This document shows positions 1,179-28,012 of a stretch of 34,957 bases of DNA, piece after piece. The DNA comes from Solirubrobacterales bacterium (GTDB lineage: Bacteria; Actinomycetota; Thermoleophilia; Solirubrobacterales; Solirubrobacteraceae): contig JAFAXX010000024.1 in assembly GCA_019240655.1 (NCBI GenBank), forward strand, positions 1-34,957. The letters are read 5' to 3'. A program made the position numbers and the translations under genes. The notes under the pieces were generated by a model that made no database searches, was not told where the DNA came from, and worked only from the letters and a program-made list of their open reading frames with translations. The stretch's first letter is position 1. Each line of letters opens with the position of its first letter.

Positions 1179-2459
1179 ATGGGCCCCGCCCCGTACACCT
1201 CGTCGCTCGCCGAGGCGCTGGCGCCCGAGGTACTCGAGCGCTTCACCCGCTACGTCCGGATCGACACTCAAGCCAGGCGCGACCGGACCGGCTCCCCGAG
1301 CACGCCCGGCCAGCTCGAGTTCGGACGGCTGCTCGCGCAGGAGCTAGTCGATATCGGGCTCGACGACGCGCAGCTCGACGACAACGGCTACGTGATGGCC
1401 ACGCTCCCGGGCACAGCCGCCGACGCCACGGTGATCGGGCTGATCGCGCACCTCGACACGAGCCCCGACGCGCCTGGCGCCGGCGTTCAGCCGATCGTGC
1501 ATCGCGGCTACGACGGCGCGACGATCGCGCTGCCGCGCGAGGGCACCAGGCTCGATCCCGCCGCGATGCCCGAGCTGGCGGCCAAGCTCGGGCACGACCT
1601 CGTCACCGGCAGCGGCGACACGCTGCTCGGCGCCGACGACAAGGCGGGAGTGGCCGAGATCATGACCGCGGTGGCGCACCTTGCTGCGCATCCTGAGCTG
1701 CCCCGGCCGACCATCCGGGTCGCCTTCACGCCCGACGAGGAGGTCGGCGAGGGCGCCACCCTGTTCGACCTCGAGGGCTTCGGCGCCGCGTGCGCGTACA
1801 CGCTCGACGGCTCGGACCTGGGCCAGCTGCAGGACGAGACGTTCAACGCGCTCGAGGCGATCGTCACCGTGCACGGGGTCGACGTGCATCCCGGATTCGC
1901 TACCGGCAAGCTCGTGAACGCGCTCCGCTTGGCCGCTCGAATCGTCGCCGCCCTGCCCGCCGACCTCGCCCCCGAGACGACCGCCGGCCGGGATGGGTTC
2001 ATCCACCCGTACGCGATGAAAGGCAGCGCGGCGAAGGCCACCATCCGGGCGATCGTGCGCGACTTCGACGACGAGGCGCTCGAGCGGCACGCCGAGATCC
2101 TCAGGAGGACCGCGGAGCAGATCGTGGGCGGAGCCCCCGGGGCCCGGCTGGAGCTCGAGCTGCGCACGCAGTACCGGAACATGCGCCGCTACCTCGACGC
2201 GGTGCCGGAGGTCACGCTGGCCGCCGAGGAGGCAATTCGCCAGGAGGGCATCGAGCCGGTGCGCGGCGCGATCCGAGGCGGCACGGACGGCTCGCGCCTC
2301 AGCGAGATGGGGCTGCCGACGCCCAACCTCTTCACCGGCGGCCACGAGTACCACTCGGTCCGCGAGTGGGCTTCGGTCAACGACATGGCTGCTGCCGCGG
2401 CGACGGTCGTGCGCCTGGCCGGCGTCTGGGCGCGGCAGCCCAGTACCCTGCCGGCGTGA
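1179..2459 (+). CDS. pepT: Peptidase T (tripeptide aminopeptidase, M20B)
   Basis: The product has 426 residues, close to the usual length of about 410. It is a cytosolic di-zinc aminopeptidase that removes N-terminal residues from tripeptides. Metal and catalytic signatures appear in order: HLDTSPDAPG (H91, D93), GADDKAGVAEI (bridging D near 153), DEEVGEG (catalytic E187, E188), the D of YTLDGSDLG (near 210), then HPGFATGKLVNA of the dimerisation domain and GGTDGSRLSEMGLPTPNLF with GGHEYHSVREW near the C-terminus. All active-site positions look intact. The start has no ribosome-binding site but a -10-like element directly before it. The last codons and the stop lie inside a direct repeat whose second copy holds the start of the next gene. 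Confidence 0.95.
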   Translation: MGPAPYTSSLAEALAPEVLERFTRYVRIDTQARRDRTGSPSTPGQLEFGRLLAQELVDIGLDDAQLDDNGYVMATLPGTAADATVIGLIAHLDTSPDAPGAGVQPIVHRGYDGATIALPREGTRLDPAAMPELAAKLGHDLVTGSGDTLLGADDKAGVAEIMTAVAHLAAHPELPRPTIRVAFTPDEEVGEGATLFDLEGFGAACAYTLDGSDLGQLQDETFNALEAIVTVHGVDVHPGFATGKLVNALRLAARIVAALPADLAPETTAGRDGFIHPYAMKGSAAKATIRAIVRDFDDEALERHAEILRRTAEQIVGGAPGARLELELRTQYRNMRRYLDAVPEVTLAAEEAIRQEGIEPVRGAIRGGTDGSRLSEMGLPTPNLFTGGHEYHSVREWASVNDMAAAAATVVRLAGVWARQPSTLPA

Positions 2460-2491
2460 TGGCGCGGCAGCCCAGTACGCTGCCGGCGTGA
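2429..2491 (+). repeat. Direct repeat spanning the pepT stop and next gene start (2 x 31 bp)
   Basis: Copies at 2429-2459 and 2461-2491 differ at one base and are separated by a single T (period 32). Both end in GGCGTGA. In copy 1 the TGA is the pepT stop. In copy 2 the GTG is the aminotransferase start. The likely ancestor was a GTGA stop-start overlap that was duplicated, moving the two genes 28 nt apart. Confidence 0.9.
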
Positions 2492-3282
2492 GCACCGCTC
2501 CGGGTTGCCTGGCTTCGCTCGACGGCGAGATCATGCTCGCCGCCGAGGCGAGCATCCCGGCCACCGACGACGGACTGCTTCGCGGCGACGGAATCTTCGA
2601 GGTGGTGCGCGTCTACGACGGCAAGCCGTTCGCGTTCGCCGAGCATCTGGCCCGGCTCGAGCGCTCGGCCGCCAACCTCCGTCTGGAGCTCGACCTCGAG
2701 GCGGTGCAGGCGGATGCCCATCGCCTGTTGGCCCGCGCCGGGCCCGGGCCGGAGCACGAGCTGCTGCGAATCGTCCTCACCCGCGGCGGCCGGCGGCTGC
2801 TGTTGACCGAGCCGCTGGCCCCGACCCCGGAGCGGATCCGTCTCGCGACGGTGACCTACTCGCCCACCCGGCTGCTCGACGGCGTCAAGTCGCTCTCGTA
2901 TGCCGCGAACATGCTGGCGAGTCGCCTCGCGCAGGAGCGAGGCTTCGACGAGGCTCTGCTGGTCACACCGCACGGCCGGGTGCTCGAGGCTCCGACCAGC
3001 TCCCTGTTCTGGGTCACCGACGGCGCTGTGCTGACCCCGCCGCTCGACGACCACATCCTCGCCTCGATCACGCGCGCGATCGTCATCGACGTCACCGGGG
3101 CGCGCGAGCATCCGTGTACGCTCGAGGACCTGTTCGCTGCCGATGAGGCGTTTCTCGCCTCGACCACGCGGGAGGTCCAGCCCGTGGCGGCCGTGGACGA
3201 CCGGACGCTCGGGGCCGGCGGGAAGGCGACCGCGAGGATCGCGGCACAGGTAGGCGCGGAGATCCGCTCCCGGCTGACTTGA
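2488..3282 (+). CDS. Class IV PLP aminotransferase (aminodeoxychorismate lyase / branched-chain type)
   Basis: The 264-residue protein has the fold type IV pattern. It shows DDGLLRGDGIFEVVRVYDGK near the N-terminus, the Schiff-base lysine in GVKSLSYAANMLAS (K134), and the cofactor-binding glutamate in GRVLEAPTSSLFWV (E167), followed by PLDDHILASITR. Members make p-aminobenzoate from aminodeoxychorismate (PabC), or transaminate branched-chain or D-amino acids. Sequence alone does not settle which. The short length and absence of a neighbouring pabB leave PabC likely but unproven. The GTG start lies in the second copy of the direct repeat. The stop overlaps the TTG start of the epimerase gene (TTGA), so the two are probably translationally coupled. 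Confidence 0.88.
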   Translation: MSTAPGCLASLDGEIMLAAEASIPATDDGLLRGDGIFEVVRVYDGKPFAFAEHLARLERSAANLRLELDLEAVQADAHRLLARAGPGPEHELLRIVLTRGGRRLLLTEPLAPTPERIRLATVTYSPTRLLDGVKSLSYAANMLASRLAQERGFDEALLVTPHGRVLEAPTSSLFWVTDGAVLTPPLDDHILASITRAIVIDVTGAREHPCTLEDLFAADEAFLASTTREVQPVAAVDDRTLGAGGKATARIAAQVGAEIRSRLT

Positions 3283-4352
3283 GAGTCCTCACGGTGATCG
3301 GCAACCGACCGCAGTTCATCAAGGCGGCGGCGGTTTCCCGGCTCCTGCGGGAGTCGCACGTTGAGCTCCTGGCTCACACCGGCCAGCACTTCGACGAGAC
3401 CCTGTCGGCGGTGTTCTTCGATGAGCTCGAGCTGCCCATGCCCGACTTCGAGCTCGGCATCGCGCGCGGGTCAAACACCTCGCAGACCGCGCGGATGCTC
3501 GGCGGGCTCGAGCCCGTCCTCGGCGAGACGTCGCCCGACGTCGTCCTCGTCTACGGCGACACCAACTCCACCCTGGCCGGCGCGCTCGCCGGCGCCCAGG
3601 CCGGCGTGCCGGTGGCCCACGTCGAGGCCGGGATGCGCTCGTTCGATCGTTCGATGCCCGAGGAGCTCAACCGCGTGGTCGCCGATCACCTGAGCGCGCT
3701 GTTGCTGTGCTCCTCGGCGACCGCCGCGGAGAACCTCGAGCGCGAGCACGTCGGCGGCGCGGTCGAGCTCGTCGGCGACGTGATGGTGGACGTCGCTATG
3801 GCCGTGCAGCCACGCGCGCGGGCGAGGCCGGAGCTGGTGGCGGCCCACGGCGTCAAACCCGGTGAGTACGTGCTGGCCACCGCGCACCGGGCGGGGAACG
3901 TCGACGACCGAGCGCGCCTCGAGCGGCTGGTGGAGCTGCTTACTGCGATCCCTGGCCCGGTGGTGCTGCCGCTCCATCCCCGCACCCGCATTCGGCTGGA
4001 GGAGGCGTGCCTGCTCGAGCGCCTGCGCCGCGGCGGTGAGGTGCGGCTGACGCCGCCGCTCGGCTACTTCGAGCTCACCGCGCTGCTGTGCCACGCCTGC
4101 GCGCTCGTGACCGACTCGGGAGGTCTGCAGAAGGAGGCCTACCTGGCCGGGATCCGCTGCGTGACCCTGCGCACGGGCACCGAATGGCCGGAGACCGTGG
4201 AGCATGGGTGGAACGCGCTGGTCGACCTCGACCGCGACGCGGCGCTCGCCGCCCTCGCCGCACCGCTTCCGTCCGAGCGTCCCCCGCTGTATGGCGCCGG
4301 CGACGCCGGCGGTCGCGTCGTGGCCGCTCTTACACTCCACCTCGCATCATGA
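3279..4352 (+). CDS. wecB: UDP-N-acetylglucosamine 2-epimerase (non-hydrolysing)
   Basis: The product has 357 residues, a little shorter than the usual 370-390. GT-B-like epimerase signatures are visible: VIGNRPQFIK at the N-terminus, HTGQHFDE, VYGDTNSTLAG (D94), HVEAGMRSFDRSMPEELNR (E116 and the PEE at about 127-129), ATAHRAGNVDD (H203), LPLHPRTR and TDSGGLQKEAYLAG. The enzyme interconverts UDP-GlcNAc and UDP-ManNAc, or the matching diacetamido-uronate if it is the WlbD member of the adjoining set. Start TTG overlaps the previous stop, and the stop overlaps the next ATG (ATGA). Tight coupling to the WlbA- and WlbB-like genes supports a role in making an N-acetylated mannosamine or uronic-acid nucleotide sugar for a surface glycan. 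Confidence 0.93.
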   Translation: MRVLTVIGNRPQFIKAAAVSRLLRESHVELLAHTGQHFDETLSAVFFDELELPMPDFELGIARGSNTSQTARMLGGLEPVLGETSPDVVLVYGDTNSTLAGALAGAQAGVPVAHVEAGMRSFDRSMPEELNRVVADHLSALLLCSSATAAENLEREHVGGAVELVGDVMVDVAMAVQPRARARPELVAAHGVKPGEYVLATAHRAGNVDDRARLERLVELLTAIPGPVVLPLHPRTRIRLEEACLLERLRRGGEVRLTPPLGYFELTALLCHACALVTDSGGLQKEAYLAGIRCVTLRTGTEWPETVEHGWNALVDLDRDAALAALAAPLPSERPPLYGAGDAGGRVVAALTLHLAS

Positions 4353-5371
4353 ACCACCGTCCGCTCCGAGTCGGCGTGGCCGGGCTCGGCTACTGGGGTC
4401 CGAACCTGGCCCGCAACTTCGCCGCGATTCCAGGGGTCGAGCTTCGTTGGTGCTGCGACGGCGCGGCTGCGGCCCGGGAGCGAGCGGCGGCCCGGTTCCC
4501 GGGCGTGCGGCTGGCCGAGGACCTCGAACCGCTGCTCGGCGATCCCGAGCTCGATGCGGTCGCGCTCGCCACGCCGGTTGCGAGTCACGCGCCGCTCGCG
4601 GTCCGCGTGCTCGCGGCAGGCAAGCACTGCTTCGTCGAGAAGCCGCTCGCGCAGTCGGTGACCGACGCCGAGCTCGCGGTCGCTGCCGCGGCGGCGAGCG
4701 GGCGCCTGCTGATGGTCGGGCACCTCCTCGAGTACCACCCGGGTGTGCAGCGGCTCAAGCAACTCGCGGACTCCGGCGAGCTGGGTGAGGACATCTACTA
4801 CATCTACGGCAACCGCCTGAACCTCGGCAAGCTGAGGGCGGACGAGAACGCGCTCTGGAGCCTCGGCGCGCACGACGTCTCCGTCGTCCTGCACCTGGCC
4901 GACGAGGAACCCTGCGAAGCGGTCGCCCACGGCGCTTCCTACGTACGCGAGGGGATCGAGGACGTGGTGTTCTGCTTCCTGCGGTTTCCGTCCGGGCTGA
5001 CCGCGCATCTCCACCTGTCGTGGCTCGATCCCCACAAGGAGCGCCGCTTCACCGTGGTCGGCTCGCGCCGGATGGCCACGTTCGACGACATGGCGCTCGA
5101 GGGCAAGCTGACGATCTACGACAAGGGCTTCGACGAAGACGCGCGCGGATACGGCGAGTACATCACCCGCAGCGGAGACATCTTCTCGCCGCGGATTCCG
5201 AACATCGAGCCGCTGCGAGTCGAGTGCGAGCACTTCGTCGAGTGCATCCGCACGGGCGCGCAGCCGCGATCCGACGGCGCCCGTGGCCTGCGGGTGGTCC
5301 GCGTCCTCGAGCAGCTGCAACGCTCGCTCGAGGCTTCGGGAGCGGCGCGGCAGGTCGCGGTCGGTGGCTGA
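4349..5371 (+). CDS. Gfo/Idh/MocA-family NAD-dependent sugar dehydrogenase (WlbA-like)
   Basis: The product has 340 residues. It opens with a Rossmann motif (VGVAGLGYWGPNLARNF), then has the EKPL signature (E97-K98-P99) and a catalytic histidine context (SLGAHDVSV, about 172-180). The C-terminal domain contains the stretch GNRLNLGKLRADENALWSLG, typical of WlbA-like UDP-GlcNAc-uronate 3-dehydrogenases and related oxidoreductases. The reading frame is open upstream, but the ATG at 4349 overlapping the epimerase stop (ATGA) is the sensible start because the Rossmann motif begins a few residues later. The stop overlaps the next GTG start by 8 nt. By context it would oxidise C3 of a UDP-HexNAc-uronate before amination and acetylation. 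Substrate is inferred. Confidence 0.88.
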   Translation: MNHRPLRVGVAGLGYWGPNLARNFAAIPGVELRWCCDGAAAARERAAARFPGVRLAEDLEPLLGDPELDAVALATPVASHAPLAVRVLAAGKHCFVEKPLAQSVTDAELAVAAAAASGRLLMVGHLLEYHPGVQRLKQLADSGELGEDIYYIYGNRLNLGKLRADENALWSLGAHDVSVVLHLADEEPCEAVAHGASYVREGIEDVVFCFLRFPSGLTAHLHLSWLDPHKERRFTVVGSRRMATFDDMALEGKLTIYDKGFDEDARGYGEYITRSGDIFSPRIPNIEPLRVECEHFVECIRTGAQPRSDGARGLRVVRVLEQLQRSLEASGAARQVAVGG

Positions 5372-6122
5372 CGAGCTGCTCGCCGGCGCCCACGTGTCCG
5401 CGCGGGCCGAGGTGGCGCCCGGAGCTCGAATCGGGCCGAGCGCGGTCGTCGAGGCCGCCGTACGGATCGGGCCCGGAACCGAGATCGGGCCCGGTGCGGT
5501 GATACACGCCGGCACGCAGATCGCCGGCGACTGCCTGATCGAAGCGCACGCGGTGCTCGGGAAGCGTCCTCGGCTGCGTGCGCGCTCGACCGCGCCGCGC
5601 GACGACCTGCCGGCGCTCCAGATCGAACCGGGAGCGACGATCTGCGCCGGCGCGGTGGTGTACGCGGGCACCCGGATCGGCGCCGGGGTGATCGTCGGCG
5701 ACCAGGCCCACGTGCGCGAGCGGGTGGTGATCGGAGCGGGCTCGGTGATCGGCCGCGGCTCCTCGGTCGAGTTCGGGACACGGATCGGCGCCCGCGTGCT
5801 GATCCAGAGCGACGTGTACGTGACCGCGGGCGTGATCGTCGAGGACGACGTGTTCGTCGGTCCGGGCGTCGTCACCACCAACGACGACACGATGGGCCGG
5901 CATCCCACCGGTGAGCCGCGTCGCGGAGCCGTGCTGCGGCGAGCCTGCCGAGTCGGCGGCGGCGTGGTGATCGTGCCCGGAGCGGAGATCGGCGAGGAGG
6001 CGTTCGTGGCCGCCGGCGCGGTGGTCACCGGCGACATCGGGCGGCGCGAGGTCGTGATCGGCGTTCCCGCCCGGGTCGTCCGCACGGTCGGCGACGAGGA
6101 CATGATCGAGCGCTGGACCTGA
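5364..6122 (+). CDS. Left-handed beta-helix (hexapeptide) N-acetyltransferase, WlbB-like
   Basis: The 252-residue product consists mostly of imperfect hexapeptide repeats ([LIV]-G-x4) forming a left-handed beta helix, for example ARIGPSAVV, VRIGPGTEIGPGAVI, TRIGAGVIVGD, VVIGAGSVIG and TRIGARVLI. It ends with VVIGVPARVVR, a typical acyltransferase C-terminus. TNDDTMGRH resembles the active-site loop of WlbB/WbpD enzymes, which acetylate the 3-amino group of a UDP-2-acetamido-3-amino-uronate with acetyl-CoA. The GTG start at 5364 (VADELL) overlaps the dehydrogenase stop; earlier in-frame starts would add low-complexity residues. The PLP aminotransferase expected between the WlbA and WlbB steps is not in the window. 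Family confident, substrate inferred. Confidence 0.87.
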   Translation: MADELLAGAHVSARAEVAPGARIGPSAVVEAAVRIGPGTEIGPGAVIHAGTQIAGDCLIEAHAVLGKRPRLRARSTAPRDDLPALQIEPGATICAGAVVYAGTRIGAGVIVGDQAHVRERVVIGAGSVIGRGSSVEFGTRIGARVLIQSDVYVTAGVIVEDDVFVGPGVVTTNDDTMGRHPTGEPRRGAVLRRACRVGGGVVIVPGAEIGEEAFVAAGAVVTGDIGRREVVIGVPARVVRTVGDEDMIERWT

Positions 6123-6166
6123 AAGGATCCCAGCTCACCCGCAGCGAGAGAAGCTAGGAGCAGCCT

Positions 6167-6493
6167 ATGGAGACCTGGGACGTCCGTGCACTGGCGATCG
6201 AGCCGCACCAGCCGCAGGTGCTGCGCTCCGACGCAGAGACCCGCGCGATCGCGCTCGTGCTACCGGCCGGCGAAGAGCTCCAGGAGCACCAGGTGCACGA
6301 GCACGCCTACCTGATCGTCCTCGAGGGGACGATTGAGCTCTCCGGTGGCGGGCGGACCGAACGGGGCGGCCCCGGCTTCCTCTCGCACTTCGAGCCGGCT
6401 GAGCGTCACGCCGTGCGCGCGACAGAGGACGCACGTCTCCTGCTTCTGCTCGCGCCTTGGCCGGGGGAGGGCCATCCGTCGCGGGCTCATTGA
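6167..6493 (+). CDS. Small single-domain cupin protein
   Basis: This 108-residue protein has the two conserved cupin boxes: an HQVHEHAYLIVLEGTIELS-like first motif (histidines around 42-47, glutamate and glycine following) and a second, HFEPAERHAVRATED. These form a metal-binding beta-barrel. There is no additional domain, signal peptide or membrane segment. AGGAG about 9 nt before the ATG supports the start. It follows the sugar-nucleotide genes by 44 nt on the same strand and may be cotranscribed, but nothing ties it to that pathway. It converges on purA with an 11-nt gap. Function within the cupin superfamily cannot be predicted. Confidence 0.82.
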   Translation: METWDVRALAIEPHQPQVLRSDAETRAIALVLPAGEELQEHQVHEHAYLIVLEGTIELSGGGRTERGGPGFLSHFEPAERHAVRATEDARLLLLLAPWPGEGHPSRAH

Positions 6494-6494
6494 C

Positions 6495-7920
<1,426 letters not shown>

Positions 7921-8268
7921 CTAGGCGAGGCGGAGCCTGGCCATCCGCCGCGGTCGCCTGCTCACCGTGGCCGTCGGCGCGATCGCCGTCGCGTGGGTGC
8001 GGAGCAGGTCGAGCAAGTGCAGTGTGGGAGAGAACGGATCCGCGACCACCGAGCCGCTCGCCATCGACAGCGCGGCGCGCAGCTCTCCGTCCACCTCGGC
8101 CAGCAGCACCGGCGGCGGTGGCGGCGCGCCCGCGCTGTCGAGCGTCGCGAGCCGGAGCAGCGCATGGTCGTCATCGGCGTAAGCGCGGCGGATCGTGATC
8201 GTCTCGGCTGCGACGGCACGCGCACGGTGGGCGGAGATCGTCCGGGGGGCAACGGGGCGGCTCGACAT
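7921..8268 (-). CDS. Small GNAT-like protein
   Basis: This 115-residue protein starts with a polar, basic leader, then TITIRRAYADDDHALLRLATLDSAG, resembling the first strand and helix of GNAT acetyltransferases. It continues with PVLLAEVDGELRAALSMASG and SVVADPFSPTLHLLDLLRTH, the next strands and helix, and ends with a basic tail (SRRPRRMARLRLA). The acetyl-CoA-binding motif A (R/Q-x-x-G-x-G/A) of a full GNAT domain is absent, so this is a half-domain or degenerate relative. Small proteins of this shape are, from memory, common in this actinobacterial group. It is divergent from the LysR gene with a 72-nt shared promoter region, suggesting LysR control. Function unknown. Confidence 0.65.
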   Translation of the reverse strand: MSSRPVAPRTISAHRARAVAAETITIRRAYADDDHALLRLATLDSAGAPPPPPVLLAEVDGELRAALSMASGSVVADPFSPTLHLLDLLRTHATAIAPTATVSRRPRRMARLRLA

Positions 8269-8277
8269 GCCGGTTCA

Positions 8278-8332
8278 ATATGCGCCCGGGCGTGCATAAA
8301 AGCAAATTGGGGTTTGCTGGACGCTGTATAAC
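8278..8332. promoter_or_regulatory. Divergent GNAT/LysR promoter with a 6-6-6 palindrome
   Basis: A perfect inverted repeat AGCAAA (8301-8306), 6-nt spacer, TTTGCT (8313-8318) lies between the two starts. On the minus strand TTGCTT (8305-8300), 17 nt and CATATT (8283-8278) make a good promoter for the GNAT-like gene, and its -35 box lies inside the left arm. On the plus strand TATAAC (8327-8332) is 8 nt before the lysR ATG, implying a leaderless mRNA. The palindrome is a candidate LysR operator. Confidence 0.55.
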
Positions 8333-8340
8333 TTGTCGTC

Positions 8341-9378
8341 ATGCTAGACGTCCGACGCCTCGGCTTCCTGCGCGAAGTGGCCCGGCGGGGCTCGTTCACC
8401 GGCGCCGCCGAGGCGCTTGGCTATACCCAGCCCGCGGTTTCGCGCCAGATCGCGGTGCTCGAGGCGGAGGTCGGGATGGCGCTGGTTCGCAGGGTGCCGC
8501 ATGGCGCGGTGCTCACCGACGCGGGGCGTCTGCTGGCCGAGCGTACGGAGGCCGTGCTGCGGCAGTTGACGGACATCGAGGTCGAGCTGCGGTCGCTGGC
8601 CGGTCTTCGGGGCGGCAGCCTCAGGCTGGCGTCGTTCGCGTCGGCGGCCGCTTCGATCGTGCCCCTGGCGATCGCCCGGTTCCGCGAGCGCCACCCGGCG
8701 ATCGAGCTGACCGTGATGATGGCCGATCCGATCGACACGCTGCCGCGTCTGCGCGCGGGGGATCTCGATCTCGCACTTTCGCACGATCCGCTTGTCGGCC
8801 GCGCGCAGGCGGCGGATGCGCTCACCGTCGGCGGCGCGCAGCACGACGGCGCCGACGTCCCCGGCCACGAGCGCGACGGCCGGCCCGCGCTCGAGACGGT
8901 GCACCTGTTCGACGATCCGATGTACGTGGCGATGCCGGTCGGTCACCGTCTGGCCGAGGTCGCGCCGCTCGGCCTCCGCGCCTTTGCCTCGGAGCCGTGG
9001 ATGCTCGGGACGACGACGTCCTGTCCGGACTCGCGGCTCTTCCTGCGTGCTTGCCACGCGGCCGGCTTCGAGCCGCAAATCGCCTTCCAGAACGACGATT
9101 ACCCGGCGATTCTGGGATTCGTCGCCGCCGGCGTGGGAGTCGCCCTGATCCCGGACATGGTGGCCCGTGGCGTCCGCGAAGACGTGATCGTTCGCCCGCT
9201 CGAGCCCGCGCCCCCCGCGCGTCCGATCCTCGCCATGCTCCCCGCCGGCTACCGCTCGCCCGCCGCGGCGGCGATGCTCGACATCCTGCACGAGGTGAGC
9301 ACGTCGTGGGTGGCCGCGCGGCCGGCGGGTGGCCGTCCGGCCGGCGGTCTGAGCTCCGCGCTGACCGGCGCGGGGTAG
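8341..9378 (+). CDS. LysR-family transcriptional regulator
   Basis: The product has 345 residues. The N-terminal winged helix-turn-helix is clear: FLREVARRGSFTGAAEALGY, TQPAVSRQIAVLEAEVGMAL, then LTDAGRLLAERTEAVL. The effector-binding type 2 periplasmic-binding-like domain begins near residue 95 (GGSLRLASFASAAASIVPLA) and includes LRAGDLDLALSHDP and GVGVALIPDMVARG. An insertion around residues 150-185, rich in Ala, Gly and Asp, separates strands of the first lobe. The C-terminal VAARPAGGRPAGG comes from a 19-bp tandem duplication. It is divergent from the GNAT-like gene, the usual layout for a LysR regulator and its target. Ligand unknown. The start lies 8 nt after a -10-like hexamer and has no Shine-Dalgarno sequence. 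Confidence 0.93.
   Translation: MLDVRRLGFLREVARRGSFTGAAEALGYTQPAVSRQIAVLEAEVGMALVRRVPHGAVLTDAGRLLAERTEAVLRQLTDIEVELRSLAGLRGGSLRLASFASAAASIVPLAIARFRERHPAIELTVMMADPIDTLPRLRAGDLDLALSHDPLVGRAQAADALTVGGAQHDGADVPGHERDGRPALETVHLFDDPMYVAMPVGHRLAEVAPLGLRAFASEPWMLGTTTSCPDSRLFLRACHAAGFEPQIAFQNDDYPAILGFVAAGVGVALIPDMVARGVREDVIVRPLEPAPPARPILAMLPAGYRSPAAAAMLDILHEVSTSWVAARPAGGRPAGGLSSALTGAG
9310..9347 (+). repeat. Tandem 19-bp duplication near the lysR 3' end
   Basis: Copies 9310-9328 and 9329-9347 differ at two bases. They lie about 30 nt before the lysR stop and encode the RPAGG repeats beyond the conserved domain. The unit length is not a multiple of three, so the second copy shifts the frame of the tail. 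Confidence 0.75.
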
Positions 9379-9407
9379 CGCGCCTCCTGGTGAGCTAGCG
9401 TTTGGCC

Positions 9408-9596: not shown

Positions 9597-9668
9597 TTCC
9601 CGGGCGTGCTGCGCGGTCGCGGCCTCGCCCGAACGCGGTTCCCTGGCCGGATCGAGGCTCCGGCGGGC

Positions 9669-11752: not shown

Positions 11753-11760
11753 CGCGGCAG

Positions 11761-11939: not shown

Positions 11940-11942
11940 GGC

Positions 11943-12392: not shown

Positions 12393-12398
12393 GGCCGG

Positions 12399-13848: not shown

Positions 13849-13879
13849 AGTTTGAGCGTCCTTACCGGGACGGCGGCCG

Positions 13880-17252: not shown

Positions 17253-17286
17253 GGCGTCAGCGGCGCCGGACGATACCGTGCCCGCT

Positions 17287-17390
17287 CGCTCGGCCGCGCC
17301 CGGGCGCCGCTTCGCTCGGCTGTGCCCGGGCGCCGCTTCGCTGGGTTGTGTCAGGGCGCCCGCTCGCTGGGTTGTGTCCGAGCGCCGGCT
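17287..17390 (-). repeat. Four tandem 26-bp imperfect repeats
   Basis: Units at 17287-17312, 17313-17338, 17339-17364 and 17365-17390. Each begins CGCT and carries a GGGCGCC-like core. Units 1 and 2 differ at two bases, and 3 and 4 form a second, more diverged pair. The array fills most of the 189-nt gap after the phosphatase-family gene and before treT, and could affect treT expression. Confidence 0.85.
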
Positions 17391-17441
17391 CGCTCGATCG
17401 CAGCGGGCAGGCGCCGTCCGGATGCTCCGTGGAGCGAGCGC

Positions 17442-19780: not shown

Positions 19781-19798
19781 CTCGTTCGCCGTCGCCGC

Positions 19799-20512: not shown

Positions 20513-20606
20513 GGTGTCCGTCCTCTCCCTGCGGAAGAGTAGTAATCGCGCTGAGTCGACACCGGGCCGAGGGCGCTACCCCCTCGGGGATAACCTCTCG
20601 GCGGCG

Positions 20607-20954
20607 ATGCTCGATCCGCGCATCAACCGCATGGGGATGTTGGCGGCCTTCGCGGTGAGCGCGCGCAGATTAACGGTGTCCCGCGGGAGCGTGGCGGCCG
20701 GCAGCGTGGATGGGATGCGCCGGCTCCACACGGCGACCGGAACGCTCGCCGGGCTCTCCGCAGGGAGCATCGTGGTGGTCGCCCCCGGTGAGGTGTCGAC
20801 GTGGTCGGGCCCCGGTGAGGTGACGACGTGGTCGCGCCCCGGTGAGGTGTCGACGTGGTCGCGCCCCCGTGAGGTGTCGGTCACCGTTCGCGACGCGTTC
20901 ACCTCCGTGTGTTCCGGCGGGCTCGGCGGCACCCGATCGGTGCTGCACCGATGA
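20607..20954 (+). CDS. Possible small gene coupled to the sortase (low confidence)
   Basis: A 115-codon frame starts at ATG 20607 and ends with TGA overlapping the sortase ATG (ATGA), as expected for a coupled gene. Third positions are about 85-90% G or C, but the antisense frame at 20576-20932 shares those third positions, so composition cannot choose the strand. The product has GMLAAFAVSARRLTVSRGSV, TATGTLAGLSAGSIVVV and then a 9-residue repeat (PGEVSTWSx, three and a half copies) from a 27-bp tandem array. I recognise no family, signal peptide or LPxTG motif. A near-leaderless start is possible (GATAAC at 20589-20594). If not a gene, the 438 nt between the response regulator and sortase holds only promoters and this repeat. 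Confidence 0.38.
   Translation: MLDPRINRMGMLAAFAVSARRLTVSRGSVAAGSVDGMRRLHTATGTLAGLSAGSIVVVAPGEVSTWSGPGEVTTWSRPGEVSTWSRPREVSVTVRDAFTSVCSGGLGGTRSVLHR
20784..20880 (+). repeat. Tandem 27-bp repeat, about 3.6 copies
   Basis: Units at 20784-20810, 20811-20837, 20838-20864 and a partial fourth from 20865 to 20880. The core is GGTGAGGTG(T)CGACGTGGTC with few substitutions. The unit is nine codons long, so it is neutral to any reading frame, unlike several other arrays in the window. Confidence 0.88.
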
Positions 20955-21736
20955 GCAGCCGCACCGAGCCCAGGCCGTCCGGCGCTTCAGTGGTGGCGCC
21001 GCCGCCGGCGACGGGCCGGACTGCGACGCGCCGGCGCCGGACGATCACTCGCCTGGTCCGCGGCGTCGCCTCGGTGCTGATCATCTCCGGGGCTCTGTTG
21101 CTGGCCGACGCCGCGGTCACGCTGGTCTGGCAGGAGCCGGTGACCGCGGTGATCGCGCTGGTCCAGCAGAGCCGGATCGACAAGCGGTTCCTCACCTTCC
21201 GCAGCGTTCCGCTGGCTCCGGTCGAGCGCCATGCCCTCGCCGAGGTGAGAAGCGACCGCCGGCGGGCGGCGTATCTCGCTCGTCGGGAGGCGCGCCGCCT
21301 GAGCGCGGGTGACGCCATCGGCCGAATCGTGATCCTGCGGATCGGCGTCAGCTCCGACGTGGTCCAGGGCACGGACCCCGCGAGCCTCGAGAAGGGACCC
21401 GGCCATTATCCGGGCACCGCGCTGCCCGGCCTCGGGCGGACGGTGGCGATCGCGGGGCACCGGACCACCTACCTGGCTCCGTTCCGCCACATCGATGCAC
21501 TCCGTCCCGGTGACCGAATCGTCCTGCGGATGCCCTACGGCAACTTCACATACCGCGTCCAGTACAACCGGATCGTGGCGCCGACGGCGCTGTGGGTCAC
21601 CCGCGACGTCGGCTATGACCGGCTGGTCCTGTCGGCTTGCACCCCGCTCTACAGCGCCGCGCAGAGGATCATCGTGTTCGCCCGCCTGGCCGGCTTCGTG
21701 CCCCTCGGGGCTGCCCGTGTGACCGGCTCCCCGTAG
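20951..21736 (+). CDS. Class E sortase
   Basis: The product has 261 residues. A cytoplasmic basic N-terminus (RRRRTITR) is followed by a transmembrane helix at about 37-60, giving a type II membrane anchor. The sortase beta-barrel runs from about 120 to 255: PGHYPGTALPG, the catalytic histidine in AIAGHRTTYLAPFRHID (H170), the catalytic cysteine in LVLSACTPLYSAAQRIIVFA (C230) and the arginine R239. Sortases cleave sorting signals on secreted proteins and join them to the cell wall. No protein with an LPxTG or LAxTG-type tail is encoded in the window, so the substrate lies elsewhere. Its last codons and stop form the first copy of a sequence repeated three more times about 400 nt downstream. 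Confidence 0.92.
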   Translation: MSSRTEPRPSGASVVAPPPATGRTATRRRRTITRLVRGVASVLIISGALLLADAAVTLVWQEPVTAVIALVQQSRIDKRFLTFRSVPLAPVERHALAEVRSDRRRAAYLARREARRLSAGDAIGRIVILRIGVSSDVVQGTDPASLEKGPGHYPGTALPGLGRTVAIAGHRTTYLAPFRHIDALRPGDRIVLRMPYGNFTYRVQYNRIVAPTALWVTRDVGYDRLVLSACTPLYSAAQRIIVFARLAGFVPLGAARVTGSP

Positions 21737-22265
21737 CGGGCTGCGCACGGGTCCGTACCTCGTGGGTCGGTGCCCGGGGAGCGGATGCTCGCTCGGCTGA
21801 GGTTGTCCGTCGAGGGAGCGGGGGCCCGGGGGCGGATTCAGCTCGCCGACGGCTCTCTGCTGTGCGACCCCCTCGGTGATGAGCGGCGGTTCGATCGGGA
21901 TCGCGGTGCGATCAAAACGTTCCTTACGCCGCGCCGGGACGAGCGCGGACGCAAACTCTGTCGATGAGCGCCAACTATTGCGCCCGCGGCCTGAGCTCGA
22001 CGACGCGAGGAACGAAATGTGCAGCAGGGCGGCCAATCAAGCGACCCGAAGCATCGCGCTCGCGGCCACGGCGCAGAGCGGAGTCGCGACGCGCCGCCCG
22101 GTGCGGGCTCACGAAGCCGCCTCAGCGCAGCCGAGCCGAGCCGCCCGTGTGACCGGCTCCGCACAGCGGGGCCGGGCCGCGCCCGTTGACCGCTACCGCG
22201 CAGCGGGGCGAAGACCGCCCGTGTGATCGGCTCCGCGCAGCGGGGCGCGACCGCCCGGCCAGGCC
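21737..22265. other. 529-nt gap with no confident gene; dispersed copies of the sortase tail
   Basis: Open frames on both strands here have poor codon bias and no recognisable domain; a 65-codon plus-strand frame from a GTG at 21770 is the least bad. The clearest content is repeated sequence. A 28-bp segment covering the end and stop of the sortase gene (21713-21740) recurs at 22143-22170 (3 mismatches), and more divergently at 22181-22208 and 22218-22245, just before the thiL stop. The middle (21880-22020) is less GC-rich than its surroundings. Confidence 0.6.
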
Positions 22266-23279
22266 TCAGAACCTATGCTCGTACCCGGACAGCGGTCCGG
22301 CGGAGTCGGTGAACGTCACCTCCGGGCTACCTTCCACCACCGAGCCGATCCAGGTCAGGCCAGTCGCGCCCGCGTCGAGGTCCGGCACCGCGGGCGACGG
22401 CGTGCCGGCCACCATGCCGGCCACCTCGCCGGCCACCCCGCCGGCCACCGCGGGGACGCACACACATATCTCATAATCATCGCCCGCAGTCGCCGCGAAC
22501 TCCCGCGGTTCCACTCCAAGCTCGGCGGCCACCTCGGCGACTCCCTGCGCCAGCGGCAGCGCCGCGAGCGTCAGCTCGATCCGGACGCCGCTTCGCTGCG
22601 CCACGTGCCCGGCGTCGGTGGCGAGGCCGTCGGAGAGGTCGATCATCGCCCGCGCGCCGCGGGCGCGTAGAGCGAGCGCCTCCCGCAGCCTCGGCACCGG
22701 CCGGGCGTAACGCGCGACGAGCGCGCGCCGCAGGTGGTCGGAGAGCCCCTGTCCGGCTCGTCCGTCGAGGACCGCCAGGCCGGCGCCGGCGGCGCCGATC
22801 GTCCCGGTCACGCCGACGAGATCCCCCGGCCGCGCGCCATCCCTCCCGATGACCTCGCTCGGCTCGTCCGCCCATCCCACGACCGTGAACGAGACGGTCA
22901 GGTCGCGGGCCCCGGTGATGTCGCCGCCGGCGATCGTCACGCCGGCGTCGACGGCGAGCTGGTGGGCACCGCGCACGAGCGAGAGCACGTAACCGGCGTC
23001 GATGCCGGCGGGCAGGCCGAGAGCCATGTACGCCTCCCCCGGGACAACCGCCATCGCCGCGAGGTCGGACAGCGCGGCCCCGAGCGCACGGTGGCCGATG
23101 TCGGGCGCCGACAGCTGGCTGGTCAGGAAGTGGACGCCGTCGACCATCGTGTCGAGCGAGGTGACCGCGTAGCGGCCCGCCCGCACGACCGCGGCGTCGT
23201 CTCCCAGCCATCTGAGCACCCGCGGGCCCGCGGGGCCCAGCGCCGACTCGAGCGCGGCGATCAGCTCGAGCTCATGCAT
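22266..23279 (-). CDS. thiL: Thiamine-monophosphate kinase
   Basis: The product has 337 residues, close to the usual 310-330. It phosphorylates thiamine monophosphate to thiamine pyrophosphate, the last step of the pathway. Diagnostic segments: GDDAAVV (26-32), [71 protein letters not shown] and [12 protein letters not shown]. Near the C-terminus a loop is enlarged by a four-residue repeat ([16 protein letters not shown]) from a 12-bp tandem array. It is downstream of infA by 35 nt on the same strand. No thiamine riboswitch or other thi gene is visible. Confidence 0.95.
22404..22451 (-). repeat. Four tandem 12-bp repeats inside thiL
   Basis: Units start at 22404, 22416, 22428 and 22440. Each begins GCCGGCCACC and differs only in its last two bases. 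The array is in frame and inserts V-A-G-x four times into a loop of ThiL between conserved C-terminal segments. Confidence 0.88.
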
Positions 23280-23314
23280 CGCGCCTGGCGTCGGGAGTCA
23301 GGTGCCGGACCGGC

Positions 23315-23536
23315 TCAGCGGTGCCGGTAGACGATGCGCGCGCGATCGAGGTCGTAGGGCGAGAGCTCGACGCGAACCCGGTCGCCGGGGAGGATGCGGA
23401 TCCGAAAGCGGCGCATCTTGCCGGCCACGTGCCCGAGCACCGTCCGATCCATGTTGTCGAGCTTGACTCGGAACATCGCGTTGGGGAGGGCTTCGACGAC
23501 CTCTCCCTCGAGCTCGACTTTCTCTTCCTTTGGCAT
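23315..23536 (-). CDS. infA: Translation initiation factor IF-1
   Basis: The product has 73 residues and is a single S1/OB domain: [60 protein letters not shown]-1 occupies the A site of the 30S subunit during initiation. The ATG at 23536 is taken because it begins the domain; the frame stays open upstream through repeats. TAGGAT lies 8 nt before the ATG with no clear Shine-Dalgarno sequence, so a leaderless mRNA is likely. The gene stands alone between a PBP gene and thiL rather than in the rpmJ-rpsM ribosomal operon, which is unusual. It may be a second paralogue. Confidence 0.93.
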
Positions 23537-23544
23537 CCACCCTA

Positions 23545-23550
23545 ATCCTA
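23545..23550 (-). promoter_or_regulatory. Candidate infA -10 element
   Basis: The minus strand reads TAGGAT, ending 8 nt before the infA ATG, consistent with transcription beginning at the start codon. Directly upstream lie two tandem-repeat arrays, so any activator site would be embedded in or beyond repeats. Confidence 0.35.
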
Positions 23551-23581
23551 GACGGTTCCTGCCGGCACTCGGGCCGGTGCC

Positions 23582-23633
23582 GCCGCGAGCGCCGGCCGCG
23601 AGCGCCGGCCGCGGGCGCGAGCCGCGGGCGCGG
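23582..23633 (-). repeat. Four tandem 13-bp repeats upstream of infA
   Basis: Units 23582-23594 and 23595-23607 are identical (GCCGCGAGCGCCG). Units 23608-23620 and 23621-23633 are variants with GGGCGCG endings. The array is about 45 bp upstream of the infA start. Confidence 0.85.
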
Positions 23634-23651
23634 GCGAGTTGCGGTATCGCG

Positions 23652-23793
23652 GCGCTGAGCGCATCGGCCCCGCCGCCGCAAGCGCTGAGCGCGTCGGCCC
23701 CGCCCCCGGAGGCGCTGAGCGCGAGGGCACGCAACCGGAGGCGCTGAGCGCGTCGGCCCCGCCGCCGGAGGCGCTGAGCGCGAGGGCACGCAA
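23652..23793 (-). repeat. Five tandem ~30-bp repeats between PBP stop and infA
   Basis: Units start at 23652, 23682, 23712, 23741 and 23771, each opening GCGCTGAGCGC. Two variant interiors occur: units 1, 2 and 4 continue with a TCGGCCCCGCC-type sequence, and units 3 and 5 with GAGGGCACGCAA. In PBP order (minus strand) the variants therefore run B-A-B-A-A. The last unit touches the PBP stop codon (23794-23796). Confidence 0.92.
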
Positions 23794-26031
23794 TCAGTGC
23801 GTCTTGACCCCGGCCCCGCCGGTGCCGCCGCTATTCCCGCCGCCATTGGCGCTGCCGCCGGCAGCCCATCCGCCGGGGATGGCGCCGCTACCCGAGGCGG
23901 CGCCGCCGGGGTGGCCGCCCGCCGTGGTCCCTGTCCCGGTGCTTGTCCCAGCCCCGGAGCGGCTCGCCCGCGCGGGGCTCGGCGCCGGCTGGGCGTACAC
24001 AGTCGGGTTGCTGTACGGGCTCGTGTAGGTCGGGCCGGTGGTCGTGCCGTTTGAGTTCTGGTTGGGATTCTGGAAGACCGGGCCGTTGCCGGCGGAATGG
24101 GGACCGGTGAACGGGCCGCCATAGAACGGGTCGTTGGGCTGCGTGAAGTCACCGCAGTAGCCGTTGCTGGCCTGCGCCATGAAGTCGTGCCAGATCGGCG
24201 CCGCCAGCGTGCCGCCGAAGCCGTCGCCCATCGGGACGTTCCCCTCCGGATAGCCGACCCAGACCGCGGTCGACAGCTTCGGCGTGTACCCGACGAACCA
24301 CGCGTTGGCGAGGTTCTCGGCGGTGCCGGTCTTGCCCGCCGCCGGACAGCCGTAGCCCGCCGCCGTCCCTGTCCCGCTCTGAATCACGCCCTCGAGCACA
24401 CTCGTCGCGGCGTACGCCTCGCCGTCGGAGAACACGCGTGTGTGCGGCGGATTGCCAAGGCTGTCGACGCGGCCGTTCGGAAACATGACGTGGTCGAGGA
24501 TCGTCGCCGGGACGTGCGAGCCGCCGTTTGCCAGGGTCGCGTAGGCATCGGCCATCTCGAGGGGGGTCACGCCGTTGCCGACACCGCCGATCACCTCGGC
24601 CGGGTTGCCCTGAAGGGGCGAGGTGATCCCCATCGCGTGCGCCATGGCGTCGAACTTGTCCATCCCGAGGTCGACCGCGAGCTGCGCGAACACGGTGTTG
24701 TCGGAGACGATCGTCGCCTTGGTGATATTGATCGTGCCCTGGTAGCTCTCCTCGGCGGTGTGGACCGACCACGCTGGTTCGGAGGGCAGCCACCCGGCTG
24801 GGAGGTACTGCGAGACGTAGTTGGTCTGACCGGGGTCGCCGTGGTAGTCGTGAATCAACGTCATCAGGGCGAACACCTTGAACGCCGAGCCTGGCTGACG
24901 CGAGCCCTGGGTGGGATAGAAGAACTTGGTCTGGCTGTAGTCCGAGGTCGAGGCCATCGCGACGATGTGGCCGTTGGACGGGTCGACGGTGGCCAGCGCC
25001 GCGGCCGGGTTGCCCGCGCCGCCTTCGTGTGCGAGGACCGCATTCCGCGCCTCCTGCTGGAGATTCAGGTCGATCGTCGTGTAGACCTTGAGCCCGCCGT
25101 CCTCCACAGCCTTGAGCCCGTACTTATCGATCAGCTGCTGCTGGACATAGTCGAACACGTACGGCTCGCGGCGGATGTTGTAGGAGGTGTTGTGCTGGAC
25201 CTGAAGCGGCTGGCGCGCGACCGCGTTGGCGAGGCTCTGGCTGATGTAGTGCGAGGCGACCATCGCCTGCAGCACCTCGTTGCGGCGCTGCTTGGCCAGA
25301 CCCGGAGCGAGGAACGGGTTGTACTCCGATGGGGCCTGCGGCAGCCCGGCGAGCAGCGCCATCTGGGCCAGGTTGAGCTTGCCGACCGGCTTGTTGAAGA
25401 AGATCTCCGACGCGGCGCCGGCGCCGCGAGCCGTTTCGCCGTCGACGGTCCCGTAGGGGGCGTCGTTCAGGTAGGTGTTGAGGACCCAGTTCTTGGTGTG
25501 GTTGCTCTCGAGCTGCTCGGCCAGCTTGGCCTGCACGATCTTGTACTTGAGGTCATGCCGGACGGCGTACTGGGGCGGCATGTACATGTTGTCGACAAGC
25601 TGCATGGTCAGCGTCGAGGCGCCCTGCAGCGATGCGCTGCCGCCGAACACGTCACGGATCCCGGCGCGAAGAATCCCCTGGTAGTCGAGCGCGCCGTGTT
25701 GGAAGAACCGACGGTCCTCGATTGCCACCGTCGCCTGCTTCATGCGGTTGGGAATCTGGCTGCCGGGCACATTGCGGAACACGATGTCCGAGTGGATGTA
25801 CCCGAGCGGTGTCCCGTCGGAGGCGAAGATCTCCGAGAGCGCGTGGGGCGTCCGCGGCGTCAGCTGCTTTAGGTCGGGCGCCGAGTTGGCTGCCGCGACG
25901 ACCCAGCCAACCGCCGCTGCGGCACCCAGCATCAACGCCGTCATCGCCAGGACGACCATGACCAGCACCACCCGTCGCACTGGGTGGCCGCGGTGGCGCG
26001 TGCGGCGCTTCTGTCGTTCGCGTCGTCTCAT
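23794..26031 (-). CDS. Class A penicillin-binding protein (GT51 and transpeptidase)
   Basis: The product has 745 residues. A basic cytoplasmic tail precedes one transmembrane helix (about 20-48). The GT51 glycosyltransferase domain has catalytic E105 in [21 protein letters not shown] (138-149) and [20 protein letters not shown] (219-238). The transpeptidase has S382-x-x-K385 (PGSAFK), S443-D-N445 and K567-T-G569. A 110-residue tail rich in Gly, Ser, Thr, Pro and Asn follows. It polymerises and crosslinks peptidoglycan outside the membrane. The frame is open for another 1.7 kb upstream, but the ATG at 26031, just before the transmembrane helix, is the sensible start. A TACACT -10-like box lies at 26104-26099. 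The stop is followed directly by a 30-bp repeat array. Confidence 0.94.
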
Positions 26032-26226
26032 CGAGGACTGTGGCGGAGCGGCGCCGCGGCGAGAAGTGAGCGGGCTCGGCGCCGAGACTCGACCGGTGAG
26101 TGTAGCTACCCGGGTTTTTCGGGCCGCCCGGCCCGGCTCCTTCCGGCTGACCGGCCGGCTTATTAACTCGAAGCCCGCCGGCTCTGGCGCTTTCGCGCCG
26201 TTGTTCGGCGCGTCGAGCCCGGCCGG

Positions 26227-26913
26227 ATGATCGCGGCCGGCGTGCGAGCCGTGCTGCTCGACGCGCTCGGCACACTCGTCCGACTCGACCCGCCGGCACC
26301 GCTGCTCCGAGTGGAGCTGCGCGAGCGGTTCGGCCTCGAGGTGAGCGAGGCCGACGCCGCGGCGGCGCTCGCCGCCGAGATCGCCCACTACCGCGCCCAC
26401 CTCGACGAGGGAAGGGACCTGGCCGCGGTGGCCGCGCTGCGCGGCCGCTGCGCCGAGGTCCTGCGGGCGGCGCTCCCGCCCTCCGATGCCCTCGCCGCGG
26501 TGGACGGCGACGCGCTCACCGACGCCCTGCTCGCGTCGCTGCGCTTCAGCGCCTATGCGGACGCCGCCCCGGCCCTGGCCGCGCTCGAGCAACTCGGCCT
26601 GCGCCTGGTGGTGGTGAGCAACTGGGACGTGTCGCTTCACGAGGTGCTCGAGCGCCTTGGCCTCGCCGCGGTGCTCCACGGCGTGCTCACCTCGGCCGAG
26701 ATCGGCGCGCGCAAGCCGGCCGCGGAGATTTTCAACCGGGCCCTCAGCCTTGCCGAGGCCGGTGCGCACGAGGCGGTCCACGTCGGCGATAGCCTCGATG
26801 AGGATGTTGCGGGTGCGCGGAATGCCGGTATCACGCCGGTCCTGGTGAAGCGCGACGGCGGCGCCGGGCCGCGCGAGGTCACCACGATCGCCAGTCTCGG
26901 CCAGCTCGCCTGA
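26227..26913 (+). CDS. HAD-superfamily hydrolase
   Basis: The product has 228 residues. Motif I is VLLDALGTLVRL with nucleophile D12; the usual second aspartate of DxDGT is replaced by leucine, as in some HAD-IA members. A helical cap follows (about 20-110). Motif II is VVVSNWD, motif III the lysine in GARKPAAEIFNRAL, and motif IV HVGDSLDEDVAGARNAG. The family covers phosphatases and dehalogenases; loss of the second motif I aspartate makes ordinary phosphatase activity less certain. It is divergent from the PBP gene. The stop codon region is tandemly repeated four times. Confidence 0.88.
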   Translation: MIAAGVRAVLLDALGTLVRLDPPAPLLRVELRERFGLEVSEADAAAALAAEIAHYRAHLDEGRDLAAVAALRGRCAEVLRAALPPSDALAAVDGDALTDALLASLRFSAYADAAPALAALEQLGLRLVVVSNWDVSLHEVLERLGLAAVLHGVLTSAEIGARKPAAEIFNRALSLAEAGAHEAVHVGDSLDEDVAGARNAGITPVLVKRDGGAGPREVTTIASLGQLA

Positions 26914-26976
26914 GCCTCGGCCAGCTCGCCTGAGCCTCGGCCGGCTCGCCTGAGCGTCGGCCGGCTCGCCTGAGCG
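26897..26976 (+). repeat. Four tandem 20-bp repeats containing the HAD gene stop codon
   Basis: Units 26897-26916 and 26917-26936 are identical (TCGGCCAGCTCGCCTGAGCC). Units 26937-26956 and 26957-26976 are identical to each other and differ from the first pair at two bases. Each holds the CTCGCCTGA that ends the HAD gene in unit 1. Pairwise identity suggests a doubling of a doubled or diverged unit. Confidence 0.95.
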
Positions 26977-27012
26977 ACGACTCCTCGGCCACGCCGTAAC
27001 CTCATCGTTGGA

Positions 27013-27900
27013 GTGCCGAGCCTGCCGCCAACTGACGCGATTGCCCCGTCCCCGTCGCCCCCCGACGCACCGAGCGAGTCGCTGCGCGAACGCGACCAGG
27101 TGCCGTGGCCGCTGTGGACGGCGCCCGCGGGCGTCGTCCTCGGGCTTGCGCTCGGGCTCGTCGGCAGCATCGTGGTCGCCGTGGTGGCCGCGATCGGCGG
27201 CTCGACCCTCGCCCATCCGACACCGGCGGTCAGCATCCTCGGCGACCTGCTCTTCGACCTCGGCTTCGTGGCGGCGGCGATCTACCTCGCGCGGGTCAGC
27301 AGCCGCCCCCGGCTCGCGGACTTCGGCTTCCGCCCGGTGAGTCCCGCGCTGGCGGTCGGGGCGGTGGCGCTGGCAGGCATCGGCTACTACCTCATCACCG
27401 CGATCTACGCGAGCCTGTTCCGGTTGCACGGGAGCGACAAGCTCCCCAGTGAGCTGGGCGTCACCAAGAGCACGGCCGCGCTCATCGCGGCGGCGGTGTT
27501 CGTCTGCGTGATCGCCCCGGTCTGCGAGGAGTTCTTCTTCCGCGGGTTCATCTTCGGGGCCCTCCGCCGCTGGCGAATCGGGTTCGCGGGTAGAAGCCTC
27601 GGACCGTGGATCGCGGCGGTGATCACCGGGATCCTGTTCGGTCTCGCCCACACCGGCTCGGCGTCTCCTCAGTATCTCCTGCCGCTCGGGTTCCTCGGGT
27701 TCGTCCTCTGCCTGCTGCGCTGGCGCACCGCATCGCTGTATCCGGCAATGGCGCTTCACTCGATCAACAACTCGCTCGCGCTTGGGCTCAACGAACTGCA
27801 TTGGGGCGCGCCGGCGATCCTCGGGCTGATGGCTGGTTCGATCGCCGTGATCTCGGCGCTCACCGGTCCGCTCGGCGCGCGCTCGCCGCGCCTGGTCTAA
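27013..27900 (+). CDS. CPBP-family intramembrane metalloprotease
   Basis: The product has 295 residues with about seven or eight hydrophobic helices after a Pro and Ser-rich N-terminus. The CPBP (Abi/CAAX-protease-like) motifs are present: CEEFFFRGF (E172, E173, R177), GLAHTG (H213) and ALHSINNSLAL (H249, N252). These coordinate zinc within the membrane. Members process prenylated proteins or peptides, or protect against bacteriocins; the substrate here is unknown. The start is a GTG at 27013; TAACCT (26997-27002) lies 10 nt before it and there is no usable Shine-Dalgarno sequence. It follows the HAD gene across the 20-bp repeats and precedes pyrE. Confidence 0.9.
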   Translation: MPSLPPTDAIAPSPSPPDAPSESLRERDQVPWPLWTAPAGVVLGLALGLVGSIVVAVVAAIGGSTLAHPTPAVSILGDLLFDLGFVAAAIYLARVSSRPRLADFGFRPVSPALAVGAVALAGIGYYLITAIYASLFRLHGSDKLPSELGVTKSTAALIAAAVFVCVIAPVCEEFFFRGFIFGALRRWRIGFAGRSLGPWIAAVITGILFGLAHTGSASPQYLLPLGFLGFVLCLLRWRTASLYPAMALHSINNSLALGLNELHWGAPAILGLMAGSIAVISALTGPLGARSPRLV

Positions 27901-27940
27901 CGCTTGTCGTTACGGTGATCGGGTCGACGTCTACTACTGA

Positions 27941-28012
27941 GTCGGGTCGCCGTGGACACTGAGAGGGCCGCCCGCGGTCGGGTGGCCGTGGACACTGAGA
28001 CGGCCGCGCGCG
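27941..28012 (+). repeat. Tandem 36-bp duplication carrying the pyrE start codon
   Basis: Units 27941-27976 and 27977-28012 differ at three bases. Each contains GCCGTGGACACTGAGA, so the GTG start context is present twice, 12 codons apart and in frame. The duplication either extends the PyrE N-terminus or leaves the first start as an alternative. Confidence 0.9.

Follow-up and report, generated by a model that had tools for sequence, protein, structure and literature searches.

Short tandem duplications at gene ends in a Solirubrobacterales genome and their probable retention where they are harmless

The 34,957-bp contig JAFAXX010000024.1 of a Solirubrobacterales bacterium (assembly GCA_019240655.1; hereafter the window, the whole stretch of DNA analysed) carries the housekeeping genes purA, dnaB, infA and pyrE and is contig C40 of a 4.06-Mb genome in 191 contigs with a GC content of approximately 70%. 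A first-pass annotation had pointed out ten short tandem arrays in it, most of them at gene boundaries. This description was confirmed, as all ten were detected with Tandem Repeats Finder (TRF) and eight either touch a called gene end or fall within 50 bp of one. The arrays of this genome and of those compared with it follow a frame filter inside genes, a rule by which a stop codon crossed by an array lies in the first copy, an avoidance of gene starts and a species-specific occurrence. The explanation that is probably correct is one of retention, short tandem duplications arising along the chromosome and being kept only where they are harmless. Duplications of ~13-60 bp would arise chromosome-wide and persist only where no harm results. 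Inside genes, survival would be almost limited to periods that are multiples of three. Over a stop codon, any period would be tolerated if the first copy contains the stop, with the gene end unchanged and the extra copies lying downstream, and in noncoding spacers any period would be tolerated except near gene starts, where a promoter, ribosome site or start would suffer. Arrays would look as if made from the gene end because duplications are kept where the first copy holds the stop. The rule is a simple one, a short stop-spanning duplication being silent to the protein at any length, and it predicts in which places compact genomes keep repeats and how overlapping genes can be separated.

Gene ends were taken from a codon-model caller of our own, trained first on named window genes and then on the genome sample, which covers 87% of the window. 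The sample of the own genome comprised 625 kb, of which 76.3 kb are noncoding; one of its contigs (L321; 2,620 bases) is masked throughout, entered the density figures as noncoding and was excluded from the junction survey onward. It was compared with other members of the genus (together, the genus set), with one genome of the family and two of the order, and with control loci from Streptomyces (20) and other Actinomycetia (13; together, the control set). The controls were picked from the best 80 of 588 named-genome matches, which are mostly to other actinobacteria and cyanobacteria; among these 80 the nearest named PurA matches are from Thermoleophilaceae and Solirubrobacterales (64-72% identity), and nearer records possibly lie outside this list. 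The Streptomyces loci represent one homologous neighbourhood (purA) and are hence non-independent, and a cyanobacterial control was excluded, the caller having covered just 27% of its sequence.

Among arrays inside genes, periods divisible by three account for 95/106 in the own genome, 90/106 in the rest of the genus, 91/105 in Streptomyces and 31/38 in the other Actinomycetia; among stop-crossing arrays of the own genome they account for 3/19. A stop was taken to lie in the first copy when the overlap of the array with the gene was at most one period plus three bases. This was the case for 55 of 60 stop-crossing arrays, with 26.5 expected if stops were placed uniformly along the array: 18/19 in the own genome (8.1 expected), 13/17 in other genus members (7.8), 16/16 in Streptomyces (6.9) and 8/8 in other Actinomycetia (3.7). 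The family genome G035 had zero stop-crossers, and the two order genomes are outside this count. With the stop in the first copy, the protein is therefore unchanged. The rule is partly automatic for periods divisible by three, because every copy then repeats the in-frame stop; among stop-crossers with other periods the first copy holds the stop in 40 of 42. The lone miss in the window, at 2418-2492, overlaps its gene by 42 bases with a period of 32, the overlap being ~32 without its ragged first ten bases. Stop-crossing arrays show no frame preference (periods not divisible by three in 42/60, 40 expected), and on the same counts extra stops in other frames were rejected as a selected insurance. 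The frame filter and the first-copy rule bear out the earlier suggestion that weaker selection at gene junctions allows duplications to persist. In a limited literature search, judged by titles and the beginnings of abstracts, no earlier description of the first-copy rule was recognised.

For placement relative to genes, each array was collapsed to one unit and the units were placed randomly wherever they were not wholly inside a gene. Units crossing a start numbered 7 in the genus set (16.2 expected) and 1 in the control set (10.5 expected), and divergent junctions of the genus set were depleted of arrays (15 observed, 27.2 expected). Per 10 kb of exposure, unit midpoints in the genus set reached 3.2 in the last 30 bases before starts and 0.6 just inside gene starts. 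Noncrossing units numbered 66 against 71.4 expected in the genus set and 64 against 68.8 in the control set. A process focused on gene junctions, such as slippage or break repair, had been proposed; with noncrossing units at these numbers and starts avoided it is not needed for most arrays, although a local bias at stops, considered below, is possible.

The own-genome sample contains 174 arrays, of which 65 are noncoding. At a score of at least 50, the threshold for this noncoding count, they occur at 8.5 per 10 kb of noncoding DNA, compared with 1.99 per 10 kb of coding DNA and 0.83 in first-order Markov imitations of the sequence, which served as background control. Strict arrays occur at 6.7 per 10 kb noncoding and 0.53 per 10 kb coding, a difference of ~12-fold. 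In the same genus, the strict noncoding density per 10 kb was 7.0 in G010, 6.6 in G008, 7.2 in G022, 3.5 in G011, 1.4 in G016 and 0.7 in G012, the samples of G010, G008 and G022 being of 45-48 kb each with 2 to 8 strict noncoding arrays apiece. It was 3.3 in the complete family genome G035 (4 arrays), 1.3 and 2.5 in the order genomes G053 and G037, 6.0 in the Streptomyces purA loci and 2.3 in the other Actinomycetia; called coding is low in the last group (80%) and in G022 (77%), where part of the noncoding DNA probably consists of missed genes. The density of the own genome is high yet not unique, and the pattern is not special to the lineage, because Streptomyces and the other Actinomycetia behave alike. 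Of the two expectations of the first-pass annotation regarding distribution, that of arrays being uneven relative to gene ends after correction for intergenic space was borne out, but that of a density unlike that of unrelated genomes of similar GC content was not, since the Streptomyces loci are similarly dense.

Array positions differ between species. At the purA junction some same-genus relatives carry arrays of unrelated units and others carry none. Relatives have arrays at junctions of their own, for example one with a 38-bp period and 3.6 copies before purA in G010 and one with a 20-bp period and 6.0 copies (100% identity) over a stop in G008. In the G010 locus (L027 1364-1500), the 3.6 tandem copies are of the region upstream of purA, which includes a TACACT element, and end at the base that precedes the ATG. 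Within the own genome, the units are mostly unrelated to one another, as had been stated; of the 65 noncoding ones, 60 are without a match in the rest of the 625-kb sample and five have one, including that of the array at 22117. A dispersed element was accordingly rejected for most units. An exception is a 24-bp unit common to L019 5433-5487 and L325 13000-13053, on different contigs and in opposite orientation.

The junction of pepT with a pabC-like gene illustrates what such a duplication may do to overlapping genes. The array at 2418-2492 (plus strand; 32-bp period, 2.3 copies, clean from ~2428) runs over the TGA that ends pepT (2457-2459) and the GTG at which the pabC-like gene starts (2488), so that of two copies of the unit the GTGA of the first gives the pepT stop and that of the second the pabC start; collapsing one copy yields a -4 GTGA overlap. 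Because 32 leaves a remainder of 2 on division by three, the frame starting at the first GTG runs for 11 codons and ends on the TGA of the second copy. This putative mini open reading frame (ORF; 2456-2491, plus strand), as read from the sequence, consists of 11 codons and a stop, its GTG overlapping the pepT stop and its TGA the pabC GTG. At 2477-2490 a TACGCT element precedes the pabC-like start and is duplicated in the window; it looks like a leaderless promoter. The junction was compared in 17 of 19 relatives' loci, L112 and L124 being left out. A plain -4 overlap is present in three (G014, G015 and G016), the rest having gaps or longer overlaps by our start calls, and in nine (L110, L111, L113, L114, L117, L119, L120, L122 and L125) TAG(G/T)CT was seen by eye 6-8 bases before an in-frame pabC-like start. 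A like anatomy with a 35-bp period and three copies occurs in the same genome at L009 4675-4780. These are the two clear cases of -4 mini-ORF linkage among four flagged, and the linkage is not general among arrays; both periods leave a remainder of 2 (chance ~1 in 9 without selection), and the weak cases, L125 and L195, leave a remainder of 1. Where genes overlap by four bases, a duplication would separate them and create new intergenic DNA. As a speculation that we hold rather doubtful, a -4 NTGA overlap duplicated in tandem with a remainder-2 period could give rise to a mini-ORF chain, maybe keeping downstream translation coupled while the genes separate; MIRU-like elements (mycobacterial interspersed repetitive units) could then start as local duplications and not as insertions, and new intergenic DNA could quite generally stem from stop-crossing duplications.

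Several results weigh against retention as a sufficient account. Gene ends rest on our own caller and not on curated annotation. Among arrays called noncoding, periods are divisible by three in 72/146 (own genome 24/47, genus 14/30, Streptomyces 24/48, others 10/21), above the expected third; because of this excess, part of the noncoding class probably sits in missed or former genes, like the array at 20775-20879 described below. Some weak arrays inside genes may reflect codon periodicity rather than duplication. Strict noncoding density varies approximately tenfold within the genus (from 0.7 to 7.2 per 10 kb), which the filter alone leaves unexplained. Stop-crossing units, moreover, number 33 against 15.6 expected in the genus set and 24 against 10.4 in the control set, and slower decay of the copy held by the gene could, by a rough estimate, give a ~1.2-fold but not a twofold excess. 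The excess holds with gaps limited to 300 and to 150 bases; with gaps of at most 80 bases it is 20 against 13.0 in the genus set (P 0.015) and 13 against 7.1 in the control set (P 0.011), and for the own genome by itself it is not significant (11 against 7.6, P 0.09). At convergent pairs, stop-crossing units number 15 against 7.9 expected in the genus set and, more weakly, 10 against 7.4 in the control set. Midpoints per 10 kb of exposure after stops in the genus set fall from 12.2 in the first 30 bases to 6.3 at 30-60 and to 4.1 and 4.7 further on; the control profile is flatter (23.9, 14.5, 19.3 and 9.8).

If gene 3' ends were mutational hotspots, through termination, hairpins or transcription-replication conflict, and selection a second filter, this would account for the twofold excess in both sets and for the convergent-pair excess, which is clear in the genus set only. 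The 3'-end units of the genus set also fold somewhat more stably than matched array-free 3' ends (mean percentile 0.63, standard error 0.04, n=65), but those of the control set do not (0.46, standard error 0.04, n=51), so that hairpins were rejected as a general cause, though not for the genus. As the longest perfect inverted repeat is unremarkable (0.53 in the genus set, 0.44 in the control set) and starts have no excess, a hotspot is possible but on the unlikely side. That the arrays are functional and selected at junctions, as tandem promoters, translation-coupling chains or regulatory RNAs, appears quite improbable: neither place nor unit is conserved between species at the compared junctions, starts are avoided instead of favoured, and the stop-crossing periods lack a frame preference. 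Such a function is suggested by the pabC array, which repeats a -10-like TAC(C/G)CT element 6 bases before the GTG, by the purA upstream region of G010, by the mini-ORF chain kept in the two -4 junction arrays and by Mycobacterium tuberculosis, where repeat length upstream of fpg1 tracks expression (PMC2734929).

Duplications could also arise when staggered breaks are filled in and their ends joined in a Ku-dependent way. At most one base of extra homology was found at the join in 15 of 18 nearly clean two-copy noncoding arrays of the genus set, and the presence of Ku fits array density in five of seven sampled genus members (the own genome, G010, G011 and G022 have Ku and many arrays; G012 has neither). 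In G008 (90% complete), however, Ku gave no match although the arrays are dense and near-identical, G016 combines Ku with few arrays, and a wider direct scan, which also catches pieces of longer arrays, gave homology of 3 or above more often than expected by chance; we regard an origin by Ku-dependent joining as rather unlikely. An assembly artefact might be suspected, as the densest genomes are fragmented (191 contigs in the own genome, 270 in G008, 460 in G010 and 580 in G022) and G012 and G016, complete genomes from the same genus, have few arrays. This is very improbable given that copies have diverged in nine of the ten window arrays and that arrays occur at the densities given above in the complete genome G035 and in the named Streptomyces loci. 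Under retention where silent, the explanation that we prefer, the mechanism is mostly ordinary, with the twofold stop bias and the differences between species left unexplained; we infer that duplications come from ordinary slippage or error-prone joining and that the majority of arrays are without function.

The first-pass annotation knew of no described class that fits these arrays, which is too strong, as mycobacterial variable-number tandem repeats (VNTR; PMC2734929) and the tandem repeats of Borg elements (PMC9879509) come close. The closest known kind is the intergenic VNTR array as found in mycobacteria: the noncoding arrays are head-to-tail units of ~10-100 bp, part of them possibly in missed coding DNA, and mycobacterial VNTRs and exact tandem repeats (ETR) likewise lie between the genes of a compact, high-GC actinobacterium, with units specific to each locus. 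Between rnc and fpg1 (ETR-F/VNTR3239) the gap is 279-358 bp long in members of the M. tuberculosis complex, compared with 1-54 bp in the remaining mycobacteria listed. Mycobacterial VNTRs vary between strains, with expression following length (PMC2734929), whereas the arrays described here were compared between species only. MIRU units lie at start/stop junctions and carry an ORF with a -4 linkage to the gene that follows (PMC12548453), an anatomy shared by the pepT-pabC and L009 arrays; MIRUs, however, are repetitive and apparently mobile, inserting at start codons (PMC12548453), whereas the units studied here look like local junction copies and, given the matches reported above, do not form one homologous dispersed family in the sample. 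Borg repeats resemble the present arrays in being recent, independent and rarely conserved between relatives, and their periods are divisible by three in 23% of intergenic cases on average (PMC9879509). They form perfect A-enriched arrays of at least three units on extrachromosomal archaeal elements (PMC9879509), while those of the present genome are chromosomal, GC-rich and mostly imperfect, the window ones lying on a contig with purA, dnaB and infA. The small variable segments of Escherichia coli and other species are also short pieces, thought to derive partly from slippage between short repeats, but are defined by strain comparison and are mostly non-tandem (PMC2884548).

Two of the window arrays lie away from a junction. 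That at 9308-9347 (plus strand; 19-bp period, 2.1 copies) is within the 3' part of a LysR-type gene (8341-9378), away from its stop. That at 20775-20879 (plus strand; 27-bp period, in frame, 3.9 copies) is within a relic ORF of 115 codons (20607-20954) not called by the caller. Relatives have a longer gene upstream of the sortase gene, of which ~480-500 codons were called, for example in L350, L354 and L359; most of these pieces are cut by the locus edge. In Pfam the L354 piece had no match, and that of L350 had one weak match to Peptidase M28, below the cut-off. Two stretches of the L354 piece align to the relic ORF, one at residues 8-40 (33 residues, 48%, E 8e-4) and the other formed by the last 31 residues (45%; 55% for L359); the ~430 residues that separate them are missing from the window, the array standing in their place. 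The end of the relic ORF overlaps a putative sortase start ATG (20951) by 4 bases, the caller having picked 20990 instead, and the same overlap of the longer gene with the sortase gene occurs in 5 of 13 relatives' loci (L349, L352, L358, L359 and L361). Descriptively, and on short matches, the array is the apparent scar of a longer gene kept by relatives.

The remaining arrays are at or near gene ends. An array of 32-bp period at 7853-7920 (2.1 copies, 100% identical) lies between the purA start (7827, minus strand) and the stop (7921) of a 115-aa minus-strand ORF with a weak caller score and no NCBIfam match. At 17282-17394 (26-bp period, 3.7 copies) an array separates the start of a TreT-type glycosyltransferase gene (17252, minus strand) from the stop of an inositol-monophosphatase-family gene (17442, minus strand). 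The array at 22117-22257 (37-bp period, 3.9 copies) is 8 bp off the stop of an AIR-synthase-family (thiL-like) gene, and a 28-bp part of its unit recurs (93%) at the 3' terminus of the sortase gene (21713-21740). The array at 23582-23635 (13-bp period, 4.2 copies) is 45 bp upstream of infA (start 23536, minus strand). The next, at 23651-23793 (30-bp period with 4.4 copies, or 59-bp with 1.9), extends up to the stop (23794) of a minus-strand gene for a penicillin-binding protein. The array at 27941-28012 (plus strand; 36-bp period, 2.0 copies) lies over the pyrE start region, with the start not fixed (called at 27982, longest frame from 27952). A perhaps spurious tRNA-Trp, not reported by Rfam at the gathering score, was predicted by ARAGORN at 28573-28652. 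The array at 26896-26975 (plus strand; 20-bp period, 4.0 copies) has in its first copy the TGA (26911-26913) that ends a HAD hydrolase gene.

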